Source: Candidatus Nitrosotalea sp. FS (GTDB lineage: Archaea; Thermoproteota; Nitrososphaeria; Nitrososphaerales; Nitrosopumilaceae). Taken from it: a stretch of DNA of 11,021 nucleotides. Numbering within the stretch: the stretch's first letter is position 1; the number at the start of each line of letters is the position of its first letter. The stretch lies in assembly GCF_011319475.1 (NCBI RefSeq), contig NZ_RCMC01000239.1:44175-55195 (forward strand). The letters are read 5' to 3'. A model generated the notes under the pieces. The model saw nothing but the letters and a program-made list of their open reading frames with translations. It was not told the origin of the DNA and searched no databases. Position numbers and translations under genes: made by a program. Positions 219-11,021 of this stretch are shown here, in pieces.

Positions 219-1067
219 TTATGCGCTAGGTTTACTCAGAAATTCAGAAACAAATTTTTTAAATTCTGGATCTGACAACTCTTTTCTTTTTTGTACAAGA
301 AATGCAGCATCATCGCCTGCGGTATACCTTAGATTGGGACTCTGTGATGTGACTGCCTCAAGTACCACTTTTGCAACCTTATCAGGCAAACTTCCATTTT
401 GTAAAAAGGAATTCATTAGGCCCAGAAGTTGTTGCATGTTTTTAAAATATGGAGAGTTTGAGTCACGACTTTTTGCAGGTATTACCATTCCACTATCAAA
501 ATTAGTTTTAATTGCACCAGGTTCTATTAGTACAACTTTGATTCCAAATGGTTCAAGATCATATGCAATGGATTCACTTAGACCTTCTACTGCAAATTTT
601 GTACTGATGTATGGAGAAAAGTATGGCAATGCTATTTTTCCTCCTATTGAACTAATGTTTACAATAATGCCGCTTTTTTGCTCTCTCATTGTAGGTAAAA
701 CTGCTTGAGTTACTCTGATCAAGCCAAAGACGTTTGTTTCAAACTGTGCTCTTAGTTCACTTATTGAGACATCCTCAAGTGCACCGCCAAGACCATAGCC
801 TGCATTGTTTACTAGAACATCTATTCTTCCCGCATCTGATTTTATACTTTTAATGGCATCATTTACAGATTTTTCGTCAGTGACATCTAGTTTCGTAATT
901 TTTAATTGTAGTTGTTCTTTCTTTGCTACTTCTGAAAGAGTTTTAGCTTTTTCTAAATTTCTCACAGTAGCAAATGTGCGAAAACCATTTCTTGCAAGTA
1001 TTAATGCAGTCTCATATCCTATTCCGCTTGCACTACCTGTGACTACGGCAACTTTGTGATCTGACAT
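219..1067 (-). CDS. Short-chain dehydrogenase/reductase (classical SDR)
   Basis: This is an NAD(P)-dependent oxidoreductase of 282 residues, the usual length for a classical SDR. The Rossmann nucleotide-binding motif TGSASGIG is at residues 10-17, DVT at 61-63, the structural NNAG at 87-90, N112 in the catalytic position, the NISS strand with the active-site serine at 137-140, and the catalytic pair in YISTK (Y153, K157). PG at 183-184 is the usual post-catalytic motif. A basic residue (R37) after the second strand hints at NADPH preference, but this is weak. The substrate cannot be told from sequence; the family acts on sugars, lipids, ketones and many others. No signal peptide is seen, so it should be cytosolic. 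The ATG at 1065-1067 places the glycine motif at the normal distance from the N terminus. The gene follows the hyf operon on the same strand but is separated from hyfI by 257 bases, so it is probably transcribed on its own. Confidence 0.93.
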   Translation of the reverse strand: MSDHKVAVVTGSASGIGYETALILARNGFRTFATVRNLEKAKTLSEVAKKEQLQLKITKLDVTDEKSVNDAIKSIKSDAGRIDVLVNNAGYGLGGALEDVSISELRAQFETNVFGLIRVTQAVLPTMREQKSGIIVNISSIGGKIALPYFSPYISTKFAVEGLSESIAYDLEPFGIKVVLIEPGAIKTNFDSGMVIPAKSRDSNSPYFKNMQQLLGLMNSFLQNGSLPDKVAKVVLEAVTSQSPNLRYTAGDDAAFLVQKRKELSDPEFKKFVSEFLSKPSA

Positions 1068-1190: not shown

Positions 1191-1328
1191 TTATTTTACT
1201 GTGGGTAGTATCTGTTCTTTTTTCAATTCTTGTACTAGTCTTACAGATATTGCAAGAATACTTGGATGTTCGGCGGATTTGCTTAAATTAGTTTGATACC
1301 GCCTCTCATTTTGGAATAATTTACTCAG
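1191..1328 (-). pseudogene. Out-of-frame continuation of the hyfI C terminus
   Basis: Directly after the hyfI stop, the minus-1 frame stays open for 45 codons to a TAA at 1191-1193. It reads as a plausible charged amphipathic tail, including LSKLFQNERRYQTNL, SAEHPSILAISVRLVQ and ELKKEQILPTVK. It has no ATG, GTG or TTG start of its own before its middle and no ribosome binding site. Adding one A to the AAAA run at 1330-1333 (minus-strand codons ATG AAA ACC TGA) would fuse it in frame to hyfI, giving a protein of about 307 residues. Three explanations fit: a real one-base deletion, a programmed frameshift, or a sequencing error in the homopolymer. A chance open frame is less likely given the protein-like composition. 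Confidence 0.45.
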
Positions 1329-2116
1329 GTTTTCATCCTGTTTACTGCCAGTAGCAGTCCCTGAAGTAATACCTCAGGCCTTGGAGGACATCCTGGAATA
1401 TAGACATCAACTGGAACAACATTGTCAATTCCTCCCGTTGTTGCATACGTATCACCAAATATCCCGCCGCTGCACGCACATGCACCTACGGCAATTACAA
1501 TTTTTGGATCAGGCGTTGCTTCATAGGTTCGCAGCAGAGCAATTGCCATATTTCTTGAAGCAGGTCCGGTTACCAACAAGACATCGGCATGTCTTGGCGA
1601 AGCTACAAAATGAATTCCAAATCGTTCAATATCATAAATGGGATTGTTAAGGGCGGTAATTTCAATTTCACAACCGTTGCATGAACCAGCATCAACCTGC
1701 CGTATTGCAAGTGATCTGCCAAACATTTTTTGAATTTTTTCTTTTAATTCATTGCCAATTTGCTCATAAGATTTTTCTGAAGGCAAAGTTTGTGGACTAG
1801 AATAATCAATTATCTGGCTTTTCATCTTTGCAGGAATAGCTGGTTTGTTGCTAATTTTGATAGTTTGTGGTGCAGATTCGCTGCAGTAACCACACATGAT
1901 GCATTTGCCATTATCCAAACCCATCGCATTATTTTCTTTGATTGAAAACAGTGCCTTTGTTGGACAGATGTCTTCAAGTATCTTTCTTTGATCATTTGTT
2001 GGCTCTGCCGTAAAGATTGCGCTTCCGTGATAATTTTCACTTGAAAGAGAATCTGACAGATTCTTGATGGTCTCAATACCATTTCCCACTATGCCCTTTC
2101 TCGCTGTCTTGATCAT
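1325..2116 (-). CDS. hyfI: Hydrogenase-4-like small subunit (NuoB family) with half-ferredoxin N terminus
   Basis: This is the iron-sulfur subunit that passes electrons to or from the large subunit HyfG on the cytoplasmic arm. The NuoB-like domain spans about 130-263. It has all the proximal [4Fe-4S] ligands: C146 and C149 in SCNGCEIE, C213 in GACACSGG, and C243 in PGCPPRPE. The N-terminal part (about 45-90) is a reduced ferredoxin: CP at 51-52 and CIMCGYC with C72, C75 and C78 can hold one cluster. The other cluster has lost every ligand; its last cysteine is alanine in SAP (81-83). The domain probably replaces the separate HyfH/NuoI polyferredoxin, which is absent here. The ATG overlaps the hyfG stop as ATGA, indicating translational coupling. 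The C terminus may be cut short by a frameshift, since a 45-codon continuation lies in the next frame. Family assignment is secure; the electron partner is unknown. Confidence 0.88.
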   Translation of the reverse strand: MIKTARKGIVGNGIETIKNLSDSLSSENYHGSAIFTAEPTNDQRKILEDICPTKALFSIKENNAMGLDNGKCIMCGYCSESAPQTIKISNKPAIPAKMKSQIIDYSSPQTLPSEKSYEQIGNELKEKIQKMFGRSLAIRQVDAGSCNGCEIEITALNNPIYDIERFGIHFVASPRHADVLLVTGPASRNMAIALLRTYEATPDPKIVIAVGACACSGGIFGDTYATTGGIDNVVPVDVYIPGCPPRPEVLLQGLLLAVNRMKT

Positions 2117-3723
2117 AGGTCATTCCCCGAATAGGACAGATCCAGACTTTTATTGACTAGTGGAAAGTCTGGTACTATATCATTTAACACAGCCTGCTCT
2201 ATAACAGGCCAGTTACAAAATGAGGCAGTTCTAATCTTGTATCTAAATATCGAGTTATTCTCCCCCATCATGACCCAGTGAAGTGTTTGCCCTCTATGAG
2301 ATTCAGCCCATCCAAGCGATGATCTGAACGGTTCAAGACGTTCTGGAATGCTTGTAAACAACGCATCATTCTCAAGATCAAGCGATTTTCTGATCATATC
2401 AAAGGAATCTCGGACTTCTTGTACGCGTATCTCAAATCGTGCCAAGGCATCCCCAGTTCGTTTTTCCATCGCAATTTGGTGTTGCATCATTTCTTGCGGT
2501 GTTTTGTGATTGTCCAAGTCATAACTTCCATAAGGATGATCGTATCTTGTATCAACCTCTATTCCTACACACCTAGCAACTATCCCTACTGTTCCAAGAT
2601 CATGTGCAATTTTTTTTGGAATAGCTCCAGTGCCGCGCAATCTGTCCATGAAAGATGATTTTGATTTTAGGAGTATTATGATCTTGCCAAAATCATCTGA
2701 AATTTCACTTAGAGTTTTAAGAATTAATTTTTTATTTTCATCTGTTATGTCGCATCGTACTCCTCCAATTCTGTTGACTCCAAAAAGAATGCGGCTTCCG
2801 CTCAGTGATTCATTAAGACGCATCAGCCTTTCTTTTAGGATATTCAGTCTTGCAGCCCCAAAAGGAAAACTTGCATCAGTTGAGATTCCTGCCAATGTCC
2901 CTACGTGATTATAGATTCTTTCCAGCTCTGCAAAAATAGTTCTGATTTTTTTTGCCCTCTTTGGGATCTCTACTTGAGATATCTTTTCAATTGCTTGACA
3001 AAATGCTGATGAATTTGCCACAGACTCGTCTCCAGCTATGCGCTCAGACAATAGTACTGCTTCATCAAGTCTCATTGATTCTGCAAGTTTTTCCATTCCC
3101 TTGTGCGTGTAAAAAAGACGGGTTTCCAGATTGATTATGTTCTCTCCCAAAATACTAAATCTAAAGTGACCTGGTTCTATGATTCCAGCATGCACAGGAC
3201 CTACAGGAATTTCACATATTCCCTCACCGTGGACTCTCAAAAACGGGTACTCTTTTTCTTGTCTTTTGACCTTTGTCTCAAGTTCAAACTCCTTTCTCAG
3301 AGGGAAAACATCATCAGGCCAGTGTTCATGCAAGACTAGGGGTCTTTCATCAGGATTTCCGGTCGGAATCAAGCCAAACATGTCTTTTATCTCCCGTTCG
3401 TAAAGTGCGGCAGCTGGAACATGCAAGGCAATACTTGGAAAAGAAAAACTTGGACCCGTAGAAACTATGATGAAAATAAAACCGTCATCTTTTTCAAATA
3501 CATAGCGGATTATAAATCCTCCAATATTTTTTTGTTCATCAGAACAAATTATTGTTGCAAGTCTTGCATTCAGATTTTTATAAACATAATCACATATTTT
3601 TGGCATGTCATTTAATTCTGCATTGAGATGTAGCTCATCATTGATTTGGCGAACCTTTGTTATTTTGTTTGAAAACTTGTCTGCAATCTCTTTTGCATAA
3701 TTTTCTAGATTTGTGTTACTCAT
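2113..3723 (-). CDS. hyfG: Hydrogenase-4-like large subunit (NuoC-NuoD fusion) without NiFe ligands
   Basis: The 536 residues carry a NuoC-like domain (about 1-150; EREIKDMFG at 109-117 and PLRKEF at 141-146) fused to a NuoD/NiFe large-subunit domain (from about 165; GPVHAGIIEPGHFRF at 175-189). This is the HyfG/HycE arrangement at normal length. In a true group 4 hydrogenase the first ligand motif is ERICGIC; here it is ERIAGDE (227-233), so A230 and E233 replace the cysteines. The second motif, DPCxxC near the C terminus, is DLSYSG at 528-533. All four NiFe ligands are therefore missing, and the protein stops at GNDL without the tail that a maturation protease removes. By eye, the complex I quinone tyrosine position is G231. 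It should be a structural or altered redox subunit of an Ehr-type complex, not an H2 enzyme. ATGA overlaps link it to hyfF upstream and hyfI downstream. Confidence 0.9.
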   Translation of the reverse strand: MSNTNLENYAKEIADKFSNKITKVRQINDELHLNAELNDMPKICDYVYKNLNARLATIICSDEQKNIGGFIIRYVFEKDDGFIFIIVSTGPSFSFPSIALHVPAAALYEREIKDMFGLIPTGNPDERPLVLHEHWPDDVFPLRKEFELETKVKRQEKEYPFLRVHGEGICEIPVGPVHAGIIEPGHFRFSILGENIINLETRLFYTHKGMEKLAESMRLDEAVLLSERIAGDESVANSSAFCQAIEKISQVEIPKRAKKIRTIFAELERIYNHVGTLAGISTDASFPFGAARLNILKERLMRLNESLSGSRILFGVNRIGGVRCDITDENKKLILKTLSEISDDFGKIIILLKSKSSFMDRLRGTGAIPKKIAHDLGTVGIVARCVGIEVDTRYDHPYGSYDLDNHKTPQEMMQHQIAMEKRTGDALARFEIRVQEVRDSFDMIRKSLDLENDALFTSIPERLEPFRSSLGWAESHRGQTLHWVMMGENNSIFRYKIRTASFCNWPVIEQAVLNDIVPDFPLVNKSLDLSYSGNDL

Positions 3724-5213
3724 GCAAATCCTCCTCCGCTAATTATTGTCGATGCATTCTGTATCAGTGTCTGTAACTGTGTCGGTATGTAGATTCCAAA
3801 GATAACTACAAGTGAGCACAATATTGCCATCGGTATTATTGCAAGTTTGCCCATTTCCCCTTTTTTCATTTCTGAAAGAGGATTTCCAAAAATCATTTTA
3901 ACAAGATGTCTCAAAAATACTGCAAAGGTTATGACCAGAAATAAAATTACCAGCGATGTTGCAACAAACTGTCCACTCTTAAAACCAGAACTTAGAATCA
4001 TAAATTCACTCAAGAAAATATTGAATGGTGGCATACCTACAAGAGCAAGTCCACCTATCAAAAACAAAATACCAGTAACTGGCATCACTGTGATTATTCC
4101 TTTTATTTTTGACATGGCTTTTGCTTCATATTTCTGGCTTACCGATCCGCTTGCAAAGAACATCAGAGGTTTTGCCATGGCATGATTTACAATCTGAAGT
4201 AATGCACCGTAGATTCCAAACAGGCCTCCAAAGCCAATACCAAGCGATATGAGGCCCATGTGCTCTACGCTAGAATAGGCAAGCATTCTTTTCATGTCTT
4301 TTTGGAAGTAAATTGATGCTGCTGCAATCCCAATAGAAACGACCGCAAGTATTATCAAAAGTTGGTTCGAAAATTCTGGCCCTATTGATACGCTGCTTAC
4401 TATATGGAAGCGAATTATGGCATAAAATGCGCAGTTTAGTAATACTCCTGACAAGACTGCGCTTACAGGTGTTGGAGCTTCACTATGTGCATCAGGAAGC
4501 CAAGTGTGCATCGGAGCAAGACCAGCTTTTGTTCCAAATCCTACAAGTATGAAAACAAATGCAATTTTGACCAAGTTTGGATCAAAAAGTTTTGCATTGT
4601 GCACCATTCCAGTCCAATTCATGGCATCATCAGAAGTATTTGCATTGATATTTGCATAATAGAAAAATACTGTTCCAATAAGTGCAAAGGAAAGACCGAC
4701 TGTTGCAATTATCAGATATTTCCATGCAGCCTCGATTGCATTTTCCTTAAAGTAAAGCATTATCAGCAGAACTGATACAAGTGTTGTAGCTTCAACCATC
4801 ACCCACATTATTCCCAAGTTGTTTGCTATTGGAACCACAAGCATGGTTAGCAAAAACACATTGAAGCCTTGATAGTATCTTACAATGTGTTTGTCGTCTA
4901 CTGTACCGTTGTCATACTGTCTGCCCATATAGTTTTTAGAATATAATGCGGCGACAAAACCTACAACTGAAACTGAAAGTAGAATTACTGCACTTAATGA
5001 ATCCACATAGAATGTATTTCCAAATGCAGTGATGGTTTTTTCAGACACTATTCTTGATACCAGAAGGAGTACCTGAATCAAAATAAGAAATGCGGTGCAT
5101 ATGGTTATGATTCCAATCATTTTTTTCTTTTTTATGACTGTCACAAGGCCTGTCCCAACTATTGGAGGCAAAAGAAGGAACAGTATTGTTAGGTTAGATA
5201 TGAGAGTGTCCAT
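3720..5213 (-). CDS. hyfF: Antiporter-like membrane subunit HyfF (NuoL/M/N, MrpD family)
   Basis: This is a 497-residue polytopic membrane protein with roughly 14 hydrophobic segments, a proton_antipo_M family member that forms an ion channel in the membrane arm. The key charged residues are in place: E141 in the segment MWVMVEATT, K229 in VGFGTKAGLAP, and H236 with D241 and H243 in the loop MHTWLPDAHSEAP. Another conserved pattern, SSVEHMG, is at 314-320. The set fits proton or sodium translocation driven by redox change in HyfG-HyfI; which ion cannot be told from sequence. Length is close to E. coli HyfF. The ATG overlaps the hyfE stop by one base (TAATG) and the stop overlaps hyfG by four, so it is translated in the middle of the operon. 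Confidence 0.92.
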   Translation of the reverse strand: MDTLISNLTILFLLLPPIVGTGLVTVIKKKKMIGIITICTAFLILIQVLLLVSRIVSEKTITAFGNTFYVDSLSAVILLSVSVVGFVAALYSKNYMGRQYDNGTVDDKHIVRYYQGFNVFLLTMLVVPIANNLGIMWVMVEATTLVSVLLIMLYFKENAIEAAWKYLIIATVGLSFALIGTVFFYYANINANTSDDAMNWTGMVHNAKLFDPNLVKIAFVFILVGFGTKAGLAPMHTWLPDAHSEAPTPVSAVLSGVLLNCAFYAIIRFHIVSSVSIGPEFSNQLLIILAVVSIGIAAASIYFQKDMKRMLAYSSVEHMGLISLGIGFGGLFGIYGALLQIVNHAMAKPLMFFASGSVSQKYEAKAMSKIKGIITVMPVTGILFLIGGLALVGMPPFNIFLSEFMILSSGFKSGQFVATSLVILFLVITFAVFLRHLVKMIFGNPLSEMKKGEMGKLAIIPMAILCSLVVIFGIYIPTQLQTLIQNASTIISGGGFA

Positions 5214-5887
5214 TAATCATCCCTCAAATTCTCTAGCTTGCCTACATCTAGGCTATCAAATGTACGGCTTATTCTGAAAAGCAGTATGGAAGAGATCAAA
5301 ATGCCAACAAGAATGTCCACGAATATTCCTATCTCAATTAACAGAGACACTCCATGTGTTAACGCCATAGCAAAGAGAAATAGCCCATTTTCTATGATCA
5401 AAAGTCCTACGACCTGGCTTAGCACAGTCCTTCTGTTTACAAGCACAAATAGTCCGATGAAAAACTGGGCCATTGAAACAGGAAGGTATGCGTTTACAAT
5501 TTGGTCAGATTTGAATGGAATTTGTTGAATAAGAAAATATGACAGAGCCACTAGCAGTGCTGAAATTATTACTGATGCACGAATGCTTACATACGGATTG
5601 GTTTCAAGCTTGAATTCAATTTCGAGTTTTCTTGTAACATATGTTAGAACTTTGGGAATGATGATTGATTTTATTACCAGAGTCAGGCCAGCCGCAATGT
5701 AAATTTCCCAAATTCCCGTAACATATCCTATGATGGCAGTTACTCCAGAAAGTACTATTGATTGGTATCGGTATGCGTTTAACCAATCCATGAATCCACG
5801 TGTCGCAACAATGCCAAACGTAGCAATCAACAGTATTGCGCCAGAAATTGTCAAAACATCAAATTGTATTGTTTCCATAAAAATCAC
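5213..5887 (-). CDS. hyfE: Membrane subunit HyfE (NuoK-like C terminus)
   Basis: This 224-residue membrane protein has about six to seven helices and the length of E. coli HyfE. The C-terminal half resembles NuoK/MrpC: QVVGLLIIENGLFLFAMAL carries E166, and the next helix carries E185 (SLLIEIG) and D191. These buried acids are where NuoK-type subunits pass protons. It should sit between HyfC and the antiporter-like subunits. The longest reading starts with GTG at 5887, giving TAGTG with the hyfC stop. An ATG three codons later (5878) is equally possible and would lie just after the hyfC stop. No clear ribosome binding site decides between them. The 3' end overlaps hyfF by one base. Confidence 0.88.
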   Translation of the reverse strand: MIFMETIQFDVLTISGAILLIATFGIVATRGFMDWLNAYRYQSIVLSGVTAIIGYVTGIWEIYIAAGLTLVIKSIIIPKVLTYVTRKLEIEFKLETNPYVSIRASVIISALLVALSYFLIQQIPFKSDQIVNAYLPVSMAQFFIGLFVLVNRRTVLSQVVGLLIIENGLFLFAMALTHGVSLLIEIGIFVDILVGILISSILLFRISRTFDSLDVGKLENLRDD

Positions 5888-6828
5888 TAAAGATAGCAGA
5901 GAACTATTCCTATCATCGAAGTAGCTATTGCTATTGCAATCAGGTCAGGTATCCTAAAGAGCCTCCACTTTGCAACAGACGATTCTGAAAAAGCAACAAA
6001 GATTCCAAATAGTGAAATTTTTCCAATAAATGCTAAAAATCCTACCGCAAGAGAGGACAGCAAAACGGATGAGGAAATTCCCCATGGAACAAAGATGTTT
6101 ACCATCAATGTGAAAAGTATGATTTGTTTGATGGACTGGGACCATTCCATTAAGGCCAAACTCTTACCTGAATATTCCAAAATCATCGTCTCATGAACCA
6201 TGGTGAGTTCAAGATGTGTAGCAGGATTATCAAACGGCAATCTGCCTGTCTCACCTAGTATGATGATGAACAAGCCTATTGCGGCAAAGATGATTTGCGG
6301 ATGAGGTAGAAATGACGCGTTTGAAGATGCCCCAATTAGCGTGCTCAAATTTGTCCCACCATATGTTATTGCCACAACAAATATGCTCAGAAAAAGTGCA
6401 GGCTCTAAAAGAGCAGAGATCATCATCTCCCTGCTGCTCCCAAGTCCGCCAAAGGAGCTTGCTACATCCAACCCTGCAAGCATTGTGAAAAATCTACCAA
6501 GTGCAAAAAGTCCTACAACAAGAAGAAGATCACCTACCAGTCCAAAAGGTGTGTATACTAAAAATACTGGAATAAAAAATGCAGCCGTTGTCATTGCTGC
6601 AAAGTTAACCCATGGACATGCCCTGAAGATCCAAGATGCTTGATCCGACACAATCTCATCTTTTCGTACTAGTTTTAACAGATCATAGTATGGTTGCAAA
6701 ACGCTAGCACCAATTCTTTTTTGTGTTCTTGCCTTTGTTTTTCGTATTATTCCGGTTAGCAGTGGGGCCAGTACCAGTATGACTAGTACTTGGGCTAGTC
6801 CAATTACGATCATTGTAATACTAGGCAT
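5887..6828 (-). CDS. hyfC: Membrane subunit HyfC (NuoH family)
   Basis: This 313-residue membrane protein belongs to the NuoH/HycD/HyfC family, which anchors the hydrophilic arm to the membrane arm. Around eight helices are visible. Family signatures are ASVLQPYYDLLKL at 41-53, just after a basic loop (KARTQKRIG at 32-40), and GETGRLPFDNP at 192-202 followed by THLELTMVHE with E207 and E213. These acidic residues line the passage that couples redox events at HyfG-HyfI to ion movement. The cytosolic loop EYSGKSLALMEW is also typical. Length equals that of E. coli HyfC within a few residues. Its ATG lies inside the end of hyfB (eight-base overlap), so the two are coupled. No oddity was seen in this subunit. 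Confidence 0.93.
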   Translation of the reverse strand: MPSITMIVIGLAQVLVILVLAPLLTGIIRKTKARTQKRIGASVLQPYYDLLKLVRKDEIVSDQASWIFRACPWVNFAAMTTAAFFIPVFLVYTPFGLVGDLLLVVGLFALGRFFTMLAGLDVASSFGGLGSSREMMISALLEPALFLSIFVVAITYGGTNLSTLIGASSNASFLPHPQIIFAAIGLFIIILGETGRLPFDNPATHLELTMVHETMILEYSGKSLALMEWSQSIKQIILFTLMVNIFVPWGISSSVLLSSLAVGFLAFIGKISLFGIFVAFSESSVAKWRLFRIPDLIAIAIATSMIGIVLCYL

Positions 6829-8866
6829 TATTGCTCAACCTCACAAATAGCAAGAGTAGAACGAGTGTTATCATGATGTAAAGCAGGTATGCGTTTATCT
6901 TTCCAGTCTGGAGCCTGCGCACCTTGTCAAAAAAGAAAACAAATGAAGAAACTATCGGAGTATAAAGTAGATCTTCGAAAATATTTTTTATTGCAGTTTC
7001 AATTTTTATAGTCTTTAGTTGGTAAGGGTTTTCTCCAAAAGATTCTTTCTCGGTTTGATTATGGGGCCTAAAAAAAACCTTAAAGACTGTACGTATTGGC
7101 TGTGAAAGAGATGTCGGAGTATACTCCATTCTCTCATTGAGGCTACCGAATCCACAATCCCAGGTTCCGTACTTGGTCTTTTTGGTATTACCGCTCAATA
7201 CACGAATAAAGCCAAAGATTGCAATTGAGACTGATGAGAGCATAATCACAACAACAGGCATGGAAAGATTTGCAAAACTTTTGCCAGAACTGTTCTGAAT
7301 TGCTATGGAATCAAATGGACTTGACGGTTGAGAAGGCATGTGGAATGCAGTAGATATCAAGGATGTACCAAGATATGGTGCAACACCAAACAATACACAG
7401 ACTGCAGCAAGAATTGACATTCCCAAAATCATGCTGTGTGGAACCTCTTTGATGTTTATGGCAAACTTACTTCTTGCCTTGGAGAGAAATGTCATACCAA
7501 ACAGTTTGACAAATGTTGCAGCCGCAATTCCTATTGTCAGTGCAAAAGGCAGACTTGCAAAAGCAATAGAAATTTGGAGTATGGTTGATGGAACGTGATA
7601 ACTTGACAACAGAGACTGCATTGTAAACCATTCACTTATGAATCCGTTAAATGGAGGAAGTCCCGAAATTGAAATTGCTCCAATCAAAAACAACAAGGCA
7701 GTCCAAGGCATTTGTTTTACAAGACCGCCTAGATGTTCGATATTTTTTGTGTGTGTTACTGACACCACAGAGCCTGCTCCCATAAAGAGCAGGCCTTTGA
7801 ATACTGCATGGTTGATTGTGTGATACATGCTTGCCACCAGTGCAAGCACAGCAAATGCGGCAAGCTGAAATGATGTAAAAACTACAGACAGCCCAAGGCC
7901 AATTAGTATTATCCCGATATTTTCAATACTTGAAAAGGCAAGGGCTCGCTTGATGTCACGCTCTACCACCGCATACAGGACTCCAATTATAGCCGATACA
8001 GAACCAAAAGCGATTAGGAGCATTCCCCACCATGCAAAATCAGGCGAGGCGCCAAATCCGCTAAAATCAAAAATCGTTCTTATCATTCCATAGATGCCAA
8101 TTTTTATCATAACTGCCGACATGAGAGCGGAAACATTGCTTGGTGCTGACGGATGGGCCTTTGGCAGCCAGACATGCAGTGGTACCATTCCTGCCTTTGT
8201 TCCAAATCCAATAAGCGCAAAAACAAATACAAGGTTTTTTACAAGCAAAGGAAAACCTGCTGAATCATGACGAAATGAATCAAAACTAAAGCTTCCAGTT
8301 TGGATGTAGCCTAACAAAAATGATGCAAAGATGAACGCGGTTCCAAAATGCGTCATTACAAGGTAGGTCATTCCAGACTTGATGTTTTCCTCTTTATCAT
8401 GATCATAAATAACTAGGAAGAATGATGTTAGCGACATCACTTCCCAAAATAATAAAAAGAAAAAGGCATTGTTCGATGCCACTACAAGAACCATTGAAAG
8501 TATGAACACATTGAAAAGAAATCCTAGTACCATGGTTCTTTTTTTGACTTGATATTCCTTTGAATATCCAATAGAATATACCGATACTGCAAACGAAACT
8601 ATTCCTACAATCAAAAGGAAAAATGCGGCTATTCCGTCAACAAAGATTTCAAGATCAAAGAAAGGGATCACATTTGGAACCATCCACGTCATGGGTTTTC
8701 CCGTGATGATATCAATGGAAAACATGATTGTAAAAACAGATCCGATCATGGCAGAACCAAAAATTGCATGTCGTGCAAATCTGTTGTTGCGTAGTAGCAA
8801 GCCAACTAGTGCACCGCCTAGGAATGTCAGAATTGAGATCTGGAACAAGACAAGATTGCTAAACAT
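6821..8866 (-). CDS. hyfB: Antiporter-like membrane subunit HyfB (NuoL family), first operon gene
   Basis: At 681 residues this matches E. coli HyfB (NuoL-like) in length. It is a polytopic membrane protein with some 14-16 helices and forms an ion channel in the membrane arm. Conserved charged residues are present: E142 in LFWEVMSLTS, K224 in GFGTKAGMVPLHVW, H230, K236 and H238 in the WLPKAHPSAPS loop, E315 in SSIENIG, and H353 with K357 in INHAVFKG. The C-terminal part contains KYGTWDCGFG and RMEYTPTSLSQPI, a pattern seen in HyfB proteins, followed by a last helix near 655-675. It is the first gene of the operon; upstream, a palindrome and an AT-rich element precede the ATG at 8864-8866. No strong ribosome binding site is seen, in keeping with a leaderless or short-leader mRNA. 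The stop overlaps hyfC by eight bases. Confidence 0.93.
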   Translation of the reverse strand: MFSNLVLFQISILTFLGGALVGLLLRNNRFARHAIFGSAMIGSVFTIMFSIDIITGKPMTWMVPNVIPFFDLEIFVDGIAAFFLLIVGIVSFAVSVYSIGYSKEYQVKKRTMVLGFLFNVFILSMVLVVASNNAFFFLLFWEVMSLTSFFLVIYDHDKEENIKSGMTYLVMTHFGTAFIFASFLLGYIQTGSFSFDSFRHDSAGFPLLVKNLVFVFALIGFGTKAGMVPLHVWLPKAHPSAPSNVSALMSAVMIKIGIYGMIRTIFDFSGFGASPDFAWWGMLLIAFGSVSAIIGVLYAVVERDIKRALAFSSIENIGIILIGLGLSVVFTSFQLAAFAVLALVASMYHTINHAVFKGLLFMGAGSVVSVTHTKNIEHLGGLVKQMPWTALLFLIGAISISGLPPFNGFISEWFTMQSLLSSYHVPSTILQISIAFASLPFALTIGIAAATFVKLFGMTFLSKARSKFAINIKEVPHSMILGMSILAAVCVLFGVAPYLGTSLISTAFHMPSQPSSPFDSIAIQNSSGKSFANLSMPVVVIMLSSVSIAIFGFIRVLSGNTKKTKYGTWDCGFGSLNERMEYTPTSLSQPIRTVFKVFFRPHNQTEKESFGENPYQLKTIKIETAIKNIFEDLLYTPIVSSFVFFFDKVRRLQTGKINAYLLYIMITLVLLLLFVRLSNNA

Positions 8867-8895: not shown

Positions 8896-8970
8896 TATCA
8901 AAACAGTTTTTCATAGTTAGGTCTTTGAGCCTAAATTTCTGTTTTATGCATTTAATTGTTTATGAGAAAA

Positions 8971-9000
8971 GGTATATGTGTATGTATGTATATATGTGTG
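8971..9000. repeat. Alternating TG/TA tract before the winged-helix gene
   Basis: Thirty bases made almost only of T/A/G steps with repeated TATG and TGTA units lie just upstream of the ATG at 9009. The tract supplies several out-of-place ATGs, and the true start is taken to be after it. It is probably a low-complexity promoter-proximal tract, with the TATA element inside it or close by. Confidence 0.4.
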
Positions 9001-9008
9001 TAAGCGCT

Positions 9009-9275
9009 ATGCAGGATTACAATAACACCGTACAATTGCTTGCCCAAAAGCCCGAATACCTCAAGACACTCCAGCTAGCTGTTCAAAAAGAAGAGGAAAA
9101 TCTACCCAACAAGCAATATCTGGGATGGCAATGGTTTGATGTGGAGACTCATCCCGCAAAACTCATGAGACTCATTACAAGCAGTATTGTCAAGGTGAAC
9201 TTCAAGTCCAACAACTCTACCAATTATCTTCTCAAGAATCGAGAATCTGTAAAACGAGCTATAAAGCGTTCATAA
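9009..9275 (+). CDS. Stand-alone winged-helix-like protein, possible fragment of an archaeal AAA ATPase
   Basis: The 88-residue product is mixed helical and soluble. The patterns KPEYLKTLQLAV (14-25), QYLGWQWFDVETHPAKLMRL (36-55) and VKVNFKSNNSTNYLL followed by NRESVKRAI (61-85) resemble the winged-helix domain that, as I recall, precedes the ATPase domain in archaeal AAA ATPases. Here the frame ends right after that region with a TAA. No Walker motif follows in any frame before 9320, so the ATPase part is absent. The frame is open upstream to 8691, but that part lies over hyfB, and the residues just before M107 of that frame come from the TG/TA tract, so the start at 9009 is preferred. It may be a truncated gene or a small DNA-binding protein in its own right. 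It is divergent from hyfB and shares the 142-base region between them, so a role as local regulator is possible but unproven. Confidence 0.6.
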   Translation: MQDYNNTVQLLAQKPEYLKTLQLAVQKEEENLPNKQYLGWQWFDVETHPAKLMRLITSSIVKVNFKSNNSTNYLLKNRESVKRAIKRS

Positions 9276-10530: not shown

Positions 10531-11021
10531 ATGAAAACTCTGTTACTTTCAAGTTTACTGATTATTACATTATTTACGACAAATATTGTCTGGGCTGATC
10601 TTCCATCTCCGACCAGTCTCAAGGCCGAAATACCTCAAACAACATATTCCTACAAAGCAAGTAATGGCACCACTGTAGTACTAGGTGAGGTTCAAAATGA
10701 CAATGATGTTCCAATCGGTAAGGTGGTTGTCTATGTCAAATTCATGAACAGTGATGGAACTAATATTATAGAATCCAAAACTGGAACAACACTTCTCCAA
10801 GTAATTCCTCCACATGGTACATCTCCATTTATGATCTATTCTACACAATCTGATCCATCAATTGCCACTGTTCAAGTAAACATGGGACCATTTGACTCTG
10901 CATCCACAAAACAGCAAGCATTAGATATTTCACCGGGGCTTTTACAAGTCTCTGATAAACTGGTTCTTTCTGGTAATGTGCATAATAACGGTGTACAAAA
11001 ATCACTCAATACCAAAGTCTA
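10531..11021 (+). CDS. Secreted protein with Ig-like/FxLYD-type repeats, 3' end outside window
   Basis: The first 163 codons are present and the frame is still open at the window edge. Residues 1-22 are a signal peptide: MK, a hydrophobic core TLLLSSLLIITLFTTNIV, then WA before D23. The mature part is beta-rich and secreted or surface-exposed. A strand pattern VVLGEVQNDNDVPIGKVVVY (49-68) and a second copy beginning LVLSGNVHNNG (144-154) resemble each other and suggest repeated FxLYD-like immunoglobulin-type domains, in which a hydrophobic strand, G-x-V and N-rich turn recur. This domain assignment is by eye. Function is not known; such proteins are usually envelope components. A GGA at 10518-10520 is a poor ribosome site, so the message may have a short leader. 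A 19-base direct repeat lies just upstream. Confidence 0.75.
   Translation, partial: MKTLLLSSLLIITLFTTNIVWADLPSPTSLKAEIPQTTYSYKASNGTTVVLGEVQNDNDVPIGKVVVYVKFMNSDGTNIIESKTGTTLLQVIPPHGTSPFMIYSTQSDPSIATVQVNMGPFDSASTKQQALDISPGLLQVSDKLVLSGNVHNNGVQKSLNTKV

Follow-up and report, generated by a model that had tools for sequence, protein, structure and literature searches.

A hydrogenase-4-like operon of Nitrosotalea predicted to encode an energy-converting hydrogenase-related complex with an acidic pocket at the former metal site

The operon and its large subunit

What can a hydrogenase-type operon do once its large subunit has lost every ligand of the nickel-iron (NiFe) center? The question is raised by an 11,021-nucleotide stretch of DNA (hereafter, the window; positions 44,175 to 55,195 of contig NZ_RCMC01000239.1) from Candidatus Nitrosotalea sp. 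FS, an ammonia-oxidizing archaeon of acid soil whose closest named relatives are in Nitrosotalea (73% to N. devaniterrae and N. okcheonensis). The window carries one compact minus-strand operon, hyfB-hyfC-hyfE-hyfF-hyfG-hyfI, in which adjacent genes overlap by 1−8 bases and all six reading frames are intact; the open reading frames (ORFs) confirm the gene order given in the original prediction, which was made from the sequence alone. It is practically certain that the operon encodes an energy-converting hydrogenase-related (Ehr) complex, which, as far as the sequence can tell, is a six-subunit membrane-bound complex I-like machine devoid of hydrogen chemistry.

The large subunit, HyfG (2113..3723, minus strand; 536 aa), is a NuoC-NuoD fusion without NiFe ligands. 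In the HMMER alignment with E. coli HycE (PDB 7z0s_E, E-value = 2e−86), ERIAGDE corresponds to DRVCGIC and DLSYSG to DPCYSC, which bears out the predicted loss of both ligand motifs. Residues A230-G231-D232-E233 (codons 3025..3036, minus strand) stand where hydrogenases have CGxC, whereas D528-L-S-Y-S-G533 (codons 2125..2142, minus strand) replaces DPCxxC and is followed by three residues only, so that there is no maturation peptide. Ligand cysteines might have moved elsewhere in the protein. None of the seven cysteines of HyfG (C44, C60, C170, C242, C324, C385 and C503) is part of a CxxC pair, and a hydrogenase with relocated ligands could be ruled out because no substitute pair exists.

The residues that took the place of the ligands are strictly conserved. 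Among the best 120 of 7887 HyfG matches, a set not selected by motif, E183, G231, D232, E233, D283, R477, D528, S530, Y531, G533 and D535 are identical in all 120, while position 230 is A in 76 and S in 44. Chance is excluded by the invariance of G231, D232, E233, S530, Y531 and G533. All 119 of these 120 homologues that have the string SYSG end three residues after it, without a C-terminal extension.

In HycE, Glu193, close to the nickel cysteine, probably carries out proton exchange, Asp192 takes the place that the quinone-site histidine has in complex I, and the canopy residues Arg478 and Asp529 are important (PMC9474812; here and below, statements from the literature refer to excerpts of the cited papers). 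The corresponding residues of HyfG are E183 (codon 3175..3177, minus strand), I182, R477 (by position) and D528 (by alignment). HyfG thus appears to retain the proton-handling residues of hydrogenases, but not the two quinone residues. D232, E233 and D283 (codon 2875..2877, minus strand) would add further acids at or near the former metal site, where the alignment suggests that they line the cavity. Together, E183, D232, E233, D283 and D528, with R477 as canopy, point to an invariant acidic pocket at this site. D283, replaced by Gly in the 16 nearest relatives with all four ligand cysteines (four-Cys rows), is not Ehr-specific, since Mbh hydrogenase and the NuoCD proteins of Aquifex and E. coli have Asp here as well. 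AlphaFold2 gave a good model of HyfG from 105 sequences; one made from 19 close sequences was discarded for its low quality (pLDDT 55.4).

The original prediction also proposed that the quinone tyrosine of complex I appears as glycine. Indeed, G231 sits on this tyrosine in the alignment to Aquifex NuoCD (PDB 7q5y_B), but no tyrosine was lost: this position is also G in 15 of the 16 nearest four-Cys rows, and because the glycine belongs to the ancestral CGxC motif, G231 is silent on any lost quinone site.

Relationship to Ehr complexes and hydrogenases

Related loci were collected with two peptide patterns, one of which was DLSYSGND, so that the motif counts for Ehr and four-Cys rows lean to that motif; the scan yielded at least 580 relatives, the best 80 of which were kept. 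Among 74 Ehr rows (L033 and L051, placed elsewhere by the script, L017−L019 and the half-way L062 are not counted), S or A at position 230 followed by G231 is present in 74, D232 in 67, E, S or T at position 233 in 70, S530 and Y531 in 74, and G533 in 73. C occupies positions 230, 233, 530 and 533 in the 16 nearest four-Cys rows.

In a quick tree of 112 large subunits, computed without bootstrap, 79 Ehr rows, including those of Nitrospira and the Candidate Phyla Radiation (CPR) and, on a very long branch, L017−L019, group apart from four-Cys enzymes (SH-aLRT 90, not starred). Thaumarchaeal rows form a starred group of 19, and the four-Cys rows nearest to Ehr include Brocadia, Thermincola and other Bacillota. 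Two large subunits have unusual motifs: that of Desulfosporosinus (L062:4376-5830) is half-way between hydrogenase and Ehr, with SGIC and LSYAC and one cysteine of each pair lost, and that of Peptococcaceae (L039:9977-11590) has CAAC for CGxC and keeps all four cysteines.

As in other Ehr complexes, a group-4-type large subunit without NiFe cysteines is encoded alongside NuoB-like, HyfC/NuoH-like and antiporter-like subunits, while the cysteine pairs, HypD/HycI (see below) and the C-terminal extension of group 4 NiFe-hydrogenases are all missing. Ligand loss, lack of HypD and HycI, and grouping with Ehr thus uphold the assignment to Ehr rather than to hydrogenases. The ligand loss is not special to one hydrogenase-4 operon: it marks a large clade spread across many phyla. 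The core of this finding is already known, because Ehr has been stated to occur in Nitrosotalea, Nitrososphaera and Nitrosocosmicus (2023 review, PMC10432482) and published for Nitrospira (PMC10284858; as hyfBCEFGI in PMC5596200) and CPR (PMC7304191). Two Nitrosotalea genome papers, in the excerpts available, list a Ni-Fe hydrogenase; if this operon was meant, it should not count as one.

Distribution in the genus and maturation genes

At a threshold of 65% identity, HyfG is matched in 22 of 37 genomes of the genus, two of the matches being partial, and in 14 of the 19 genomes that are at least 90% complete. The same operon is found in the single-contig genus genomes G006 and G036. A distant second Ehr-like complex (L017:6088-13356, L018 and L019) occurs in two genus genomes (G018 and G020) and in one of the order; G018 encodes both this complex and the one defined by the 65% threshold. 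The large subunit of the second complex matches HyfG only from about residue 162 and has motifs AGNF and LSYAD; its genes are ordered C-E-F-G-I-B, with hyfC not seen in L019.

Hydrogenase maturation genes and a maturation protease dedicated to the operon would speak for a hydrogenase. HypD, the only Hyp protein searched for, and HycI were each matched in none of the 37 genus genomes. Both were matched in the positive controls, E. coli and two methanogens, and each is present in 7 of all 61 relatives searched. Since the source genome is 78.8% complete, it is the genus-wide count that carries the argument. As for a separate complex I, for which a search had been suggested, the source genome encodes a complex I NuoD together with nuoB, C, H and I on another contig, C239. 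In this NuoD (L001/L029, G000:C239), the quinone-tyrosine position is occupied by Ile (ERPVIHD), and L022 is alike; its quinone-histidine loop is shorter, so the histidine position is unsure.

Iron-sulfur sites and ion-path residues of the other subunits

All six subunits score above the Pfam cut-offs as complex I/hydrogenase-type proteins, and their top NCBIfam matches are hydrogenase-4 or Nuo models. HyfI (1325..2116, minus strand; 263 aa) consists of a ferredoxin-like N-terminus fused to a NuoB/HycG-like small subunit. The pattern of C51, C72, C75 and C78 (1883..1966, minus strand) suggests one [4Fe-4S] cluster in the N-terminal part; of 22 thaumarchaeal HyfI ORFs, a set in which some genes are represented twice, 21 show it, the exception being the short ORF of L031. 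The proximal cluster would be bound by C146, C149, C213 and C243 (1388..1681, minus strand), which have the hydrogenase-type CxxC spacing (CNGC) rather than the tandem-cysteine arrangement of cluster N2 in NuoB.

The membrane arm comprises two antiporter-like subunits, HyfB (6821..8866, minus strand; 681 aa), encoded by the first gene of the operon and matching the NCBIfam hydrogenase 4 subunit B model at 690 bits (cut-off 667), and HyfF (3720..5213, minus strand; 497 aa), as well as the NuoH/HycD-like HyfC (5887..6828, minus strand; 313 aa), which carries the E-channel glutamates, and the NuoK-like HyfE (5213..5887, minus strand; 224 aa). In HyfB, E142, H238, H353 and K357 are present in 47 of 47 Ehr-group rows, K224 in 46, E412 in 45 and K255 in 44. 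HyfC retains E193, E207, E213, E218 and E282 in all 46 aligned rows of the group, and HyfF retains E141, K229, H236 and H344 in 66 of 67 rows and K348 in 65. Thus, the expectation that the other subunits keep their iron-sulfur (Fe-S) sites and ion-path residues holds.

Ehr relatives without proximal Fe-S ligands

The proximal cluster is not universal in Ehr. Among 64 aligned Ehr small subunits (identical ones counted once), 50 have four ligands, two are truncated, one (L097) has three, and 11 have lost three or four. L058, which is partial and has two Asp at its visible ligand sites, is a twelfth such locus. By comparison, all 23 aligned small subunits from the 24 four-Cys loci keep the four proximal ligands. 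One group of losers consists of methanogens, an Altiarchaeales and a Dehalococcoidales contig, and has D, T, D and N at the ligand sites; the other consists of CPR, with D or T, C, D or G, and D. Small subunits of this Fe-S-free kind are encoded in CPR loci L042 (4298-4840), L060, L073, L076, L083, L086, L104 and L058, in L088, L092 (11619-12131), L094 and L095, and in L156, L157, L159, L160 and L161. The L086 contig is labelled Thermoleophilia yet groups with CPR, possibly due to a binning error.

A single origin of the loss was rejected (p-AU = 0.0101) and two changes were counted over 19 rows, although seven of these are CPR rows placed by tree position, with the small subunit unread, and the p-value is not that of a clean prior test. 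The replacement residues are themselves conserved: among the 120 best homologues of the Methanosarcina small subunit none has Cys at any of the four sites and 101 have DTDN, whereas the 120 best homologues of the CPR subunit keep only C149 (81 DCDD, 39 DCDN). Because the replacement is so uniform, the loss does not represent decay. Furthermore, the pocket is maintained, with E183, S230, G231, D232, S530 and Y531 in 12 of 12 Fe-S-free loci and D283 in 11. In a comparison that leaves HyfE aside, these loci also keep the ion-path residues of HyfB, HyfC and HyfF, except that Glu403 of HyfF is Lys in 8 of 13, as it is in 6 of 14 four-Cys rows. The Fe-S-free six-gene complexes showed no further recognizable redox site. 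Since two separate lineages have lost three or four proximal ligands, redox chemistry is not indispensable to the Ehr family. Excerpts of the open PMC literature, not covering the founding Ehr papers, yielded no report of such a loss in Ehr small subunits.

In 3 of 11 readable CPR loci, ATP synthase (atp) genes directly precede the Fe-S-free Ehr operon on the same strand: atpA, G, D and C in L042 (2-4165) and L104 (3-4130), and atpG and D in L058 (1-1867), where masked sequence lies in between. In L076, an atpC-like gene is one ORF away on the opposite strand, with more atp genes about 5 kb past the operon. The remaining seven, L060, L083, L157, L159, L160, L161 and L163 (which contains just the first 86 residues of HyfI), have no atp gene near. 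The count omits L162, which has another gene order and 34% identity, and loci without readable upstream DNA. A general adjacency of Ehr and ATP synthase, apparent at first, was cut to these three direct cases and L076 by a wider draw, in which a sample of 286 genomes from the phylum gave 13 with a HyfI-like match, at least one of them (L164) an ordinary four-Cys hydrogenase.

Possible mechanism and alternatives

Ehr has been suspected of coupling a cytoplasmic redox reaction to ion translocation (PMC6349859). For the Nitrosotalea complex we favor ion pumping linked to the Fe-S clusters, with an acidic pocket that can be protonated, because its clade keeps both clusters; we put the probability of this reading at roughly one half. 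HyfI would exchange electrons with a ferredoxin-like donor; charge on its proximal cluster would be balanced as the acidic pocket is protonated, and the HyfC glutamates may relay this protonation to HyfF and HyfB, the subunits that would transport protons or other cations. H2 is not the final electron partner. Run in reverse, the machine might deliver electrons to a ferredoxin-like acceptor and so make low-potential electrons for an autotroph. By analogy with the reverse-running complex I hypothesized for ammonia-oxidizing archaea (PMC7785015), supplying low-potential reductant would be an attractive role in an ammonia oxidizer.

Several observations weigh against the Fe-S-linked pump. The complex is accessory, as five of the 19 genomes of the genus with at least 90% completeness do not have it. 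Across 12 thaumarchaeal loci, even the most widespread neighbor family reaches just 5, and the families examined include no redox partner (most were clustered, not annotated). Relatives without proximal ligands keep the pocket, so it does not have to be tied to redox. The earlier expectation of an active complex with a redox partner is plausible in the clade of the window, but does not extend to the whole family, given the two Ehr lineages that lost these ligands.

Loss of the proximal cluster lends substance to a possible, if unlikely, alternative, in which an Mrp-like antiporter core with a soluble head translocates cations or protons without redox chemistry or under redox gating; the Fe-S clusters encoded in the window would then be sensor, gate or leftover and the acidic pocket an ion or proton site. 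This idea is alive because Fe-S-free forms keep the pocket and the membrane arm under selection without the proximal cluster. It accounts for the 12 Ehr loci at two places in the tree, with a single clade rejected, and for the absence of the four-cysteine set from all 240 listed homologues of two such subunits; the retained pocket and membrane residues and the atp genes in front of or around four of the CPR operons also agree with it. Seven of the 11 CPR loci lie away from atp genes, however, and the eight cysteines of two clusters kept in the clade of the window are expected only if electron transfer still matters. MnhE, the marker of a separate Mrp antiporter, was matched in none of the 37 genus genomes, an absence that is neutral. 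A ferredoxin:quinone oxidoreductase, a pared-down complex I whose quinone would occupy the former NiFe pocket, is more doubtful still: the tyrosine and histidine positions are G231 and I182 in all 120 listed homologues, the hydrogenase-type E183 is kept, the proximal cluster is of the hydrogenase CxxC type and not a tandem-Cys N2, and D283 does not point to quinone, as Mbh hydrogenase has this Asp too.

Two further readings are already contradicted. An operon and fold so hydrogenase-like could suggest an enzyme with unusual metal ligands, but HyfG has neither the ligand set nor the C-terminal extension and HypD and HycI are unmatched in the genus, which makes a hydrogenase very improbable. The patchy presence in the genus would suit a non-functional remnant, a reading that is barely credible considering the six intact frames, the invariant pocket and a ratio of nonsynonymous to synonymous substitutions (dN/dS) for HyfG of 0.075−0.177 against six congeners (6 pairs), which indicates purifying selection and rules out pseudogene decay.

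The loss of Fe-S ligands in some relatives hints that the shared job of the family is moving ions. We tentatively propose, as a speculation, that Ehr complexes are relatives of complex I in which ion translocation via the acidic pocket is conserved and redox centers are optional. CPR and methanogen/Altiarchaeal forms would be redox-free exchangers working alongside ATP synthase, with an Asp/Asn/Thr(/Cys) cage, possibly a cation site, in place of the Fe-S cluster, and the Nitrosotalea complex would be an Fe-S-gated member. The invariant acidic pocket names residues for mutation, and the forms without proximal ligands, if functional, could show directly whether electron transfer is needed to drive or gate the membrane arm of a complex I relative.

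Neighboring genes

Geobacter Ehr was found at higher abundance with formate (PMC7894505), and pairing with a formate dehydrogenase was proposed for some bacteria (PMC6349859); clustering of neighbors revealed no formate dehydrogenase-type gene recurring beside the Nitrosotalea operon. A divergent ORF upstream of hyfB (8898-9275, plus strand) is possibly a regulator; about 105 aa of it recur in 5 of 12 thaumarchaeal loci, the window copy had no match in a Pfam search and the family has no convincing one. An SDR oxidoreductase gene (219-1067, minus strand) lies downstream on the operon strand and does not recur at other Ehr loci, and a gene for an FxLYD-domain protein is at 10531-11019 (plus strand). 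There is no sign that either belongs to the complex.

Comparison with known systems

Respiratory complex I (NuoD/NuoB) shares with the window the large-subunit fold and the type of membrane arm, but the window complex lacks the quinone Tyr/His, has a CxxC-type proximal cluster and no NuoEFG in its operon. To the Mbs/Mbx sulfane reductase, HyfG shows only a distant PDB match (6u8y_L). E. coli hydrogenases-3 and -4 (HycE, HyfG) have the four NiFe cysteines, a separate HycF/HyfH, a maturation protease, Hyp genes and a C-terminal extension removed on maturation, which HyfG of the window does not have, and the E. coli hyf operon includes hyfA, D, H, J and R, all absent here. The four-Cys relatives nearest Ehr (Thermincola, Brocadia and others) have, by both alignment and tree, the closest four-Cys large subunits (38−46% identity), with all four ligand cysteines in the motifs C-x-x-C and ELCY[SA]C (16 rows), whereas the window has none. 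Within Ehr, the complexes of ammonia-oxidizing archaea cover the same genus, with group-4a homologues reported to be without the CxxC motif (PMC10432482); the excerpts of that review contain nothing that sets the window apart and do not describe the acidic pocket. Nitrospira hyfBCEFGI (PMC5596200, PMC10284858) has six genes in common with the window and has lost the ligands likewise (SGDT and LSYAG in the Nitrospira rows), but its HyfI is 169−173 aa long, without the N-terminal Fe-S stretch, and identity to the window is 38−42%. Finally, Ehr of Patescibacteria/CPR (PMC7304191) has an SGD pocket and subunits as in the window, but differs in that the proximal Fe-S ligands are gone too, hyfI comes first in the operon and some loci adjoin ATP synthase genes.

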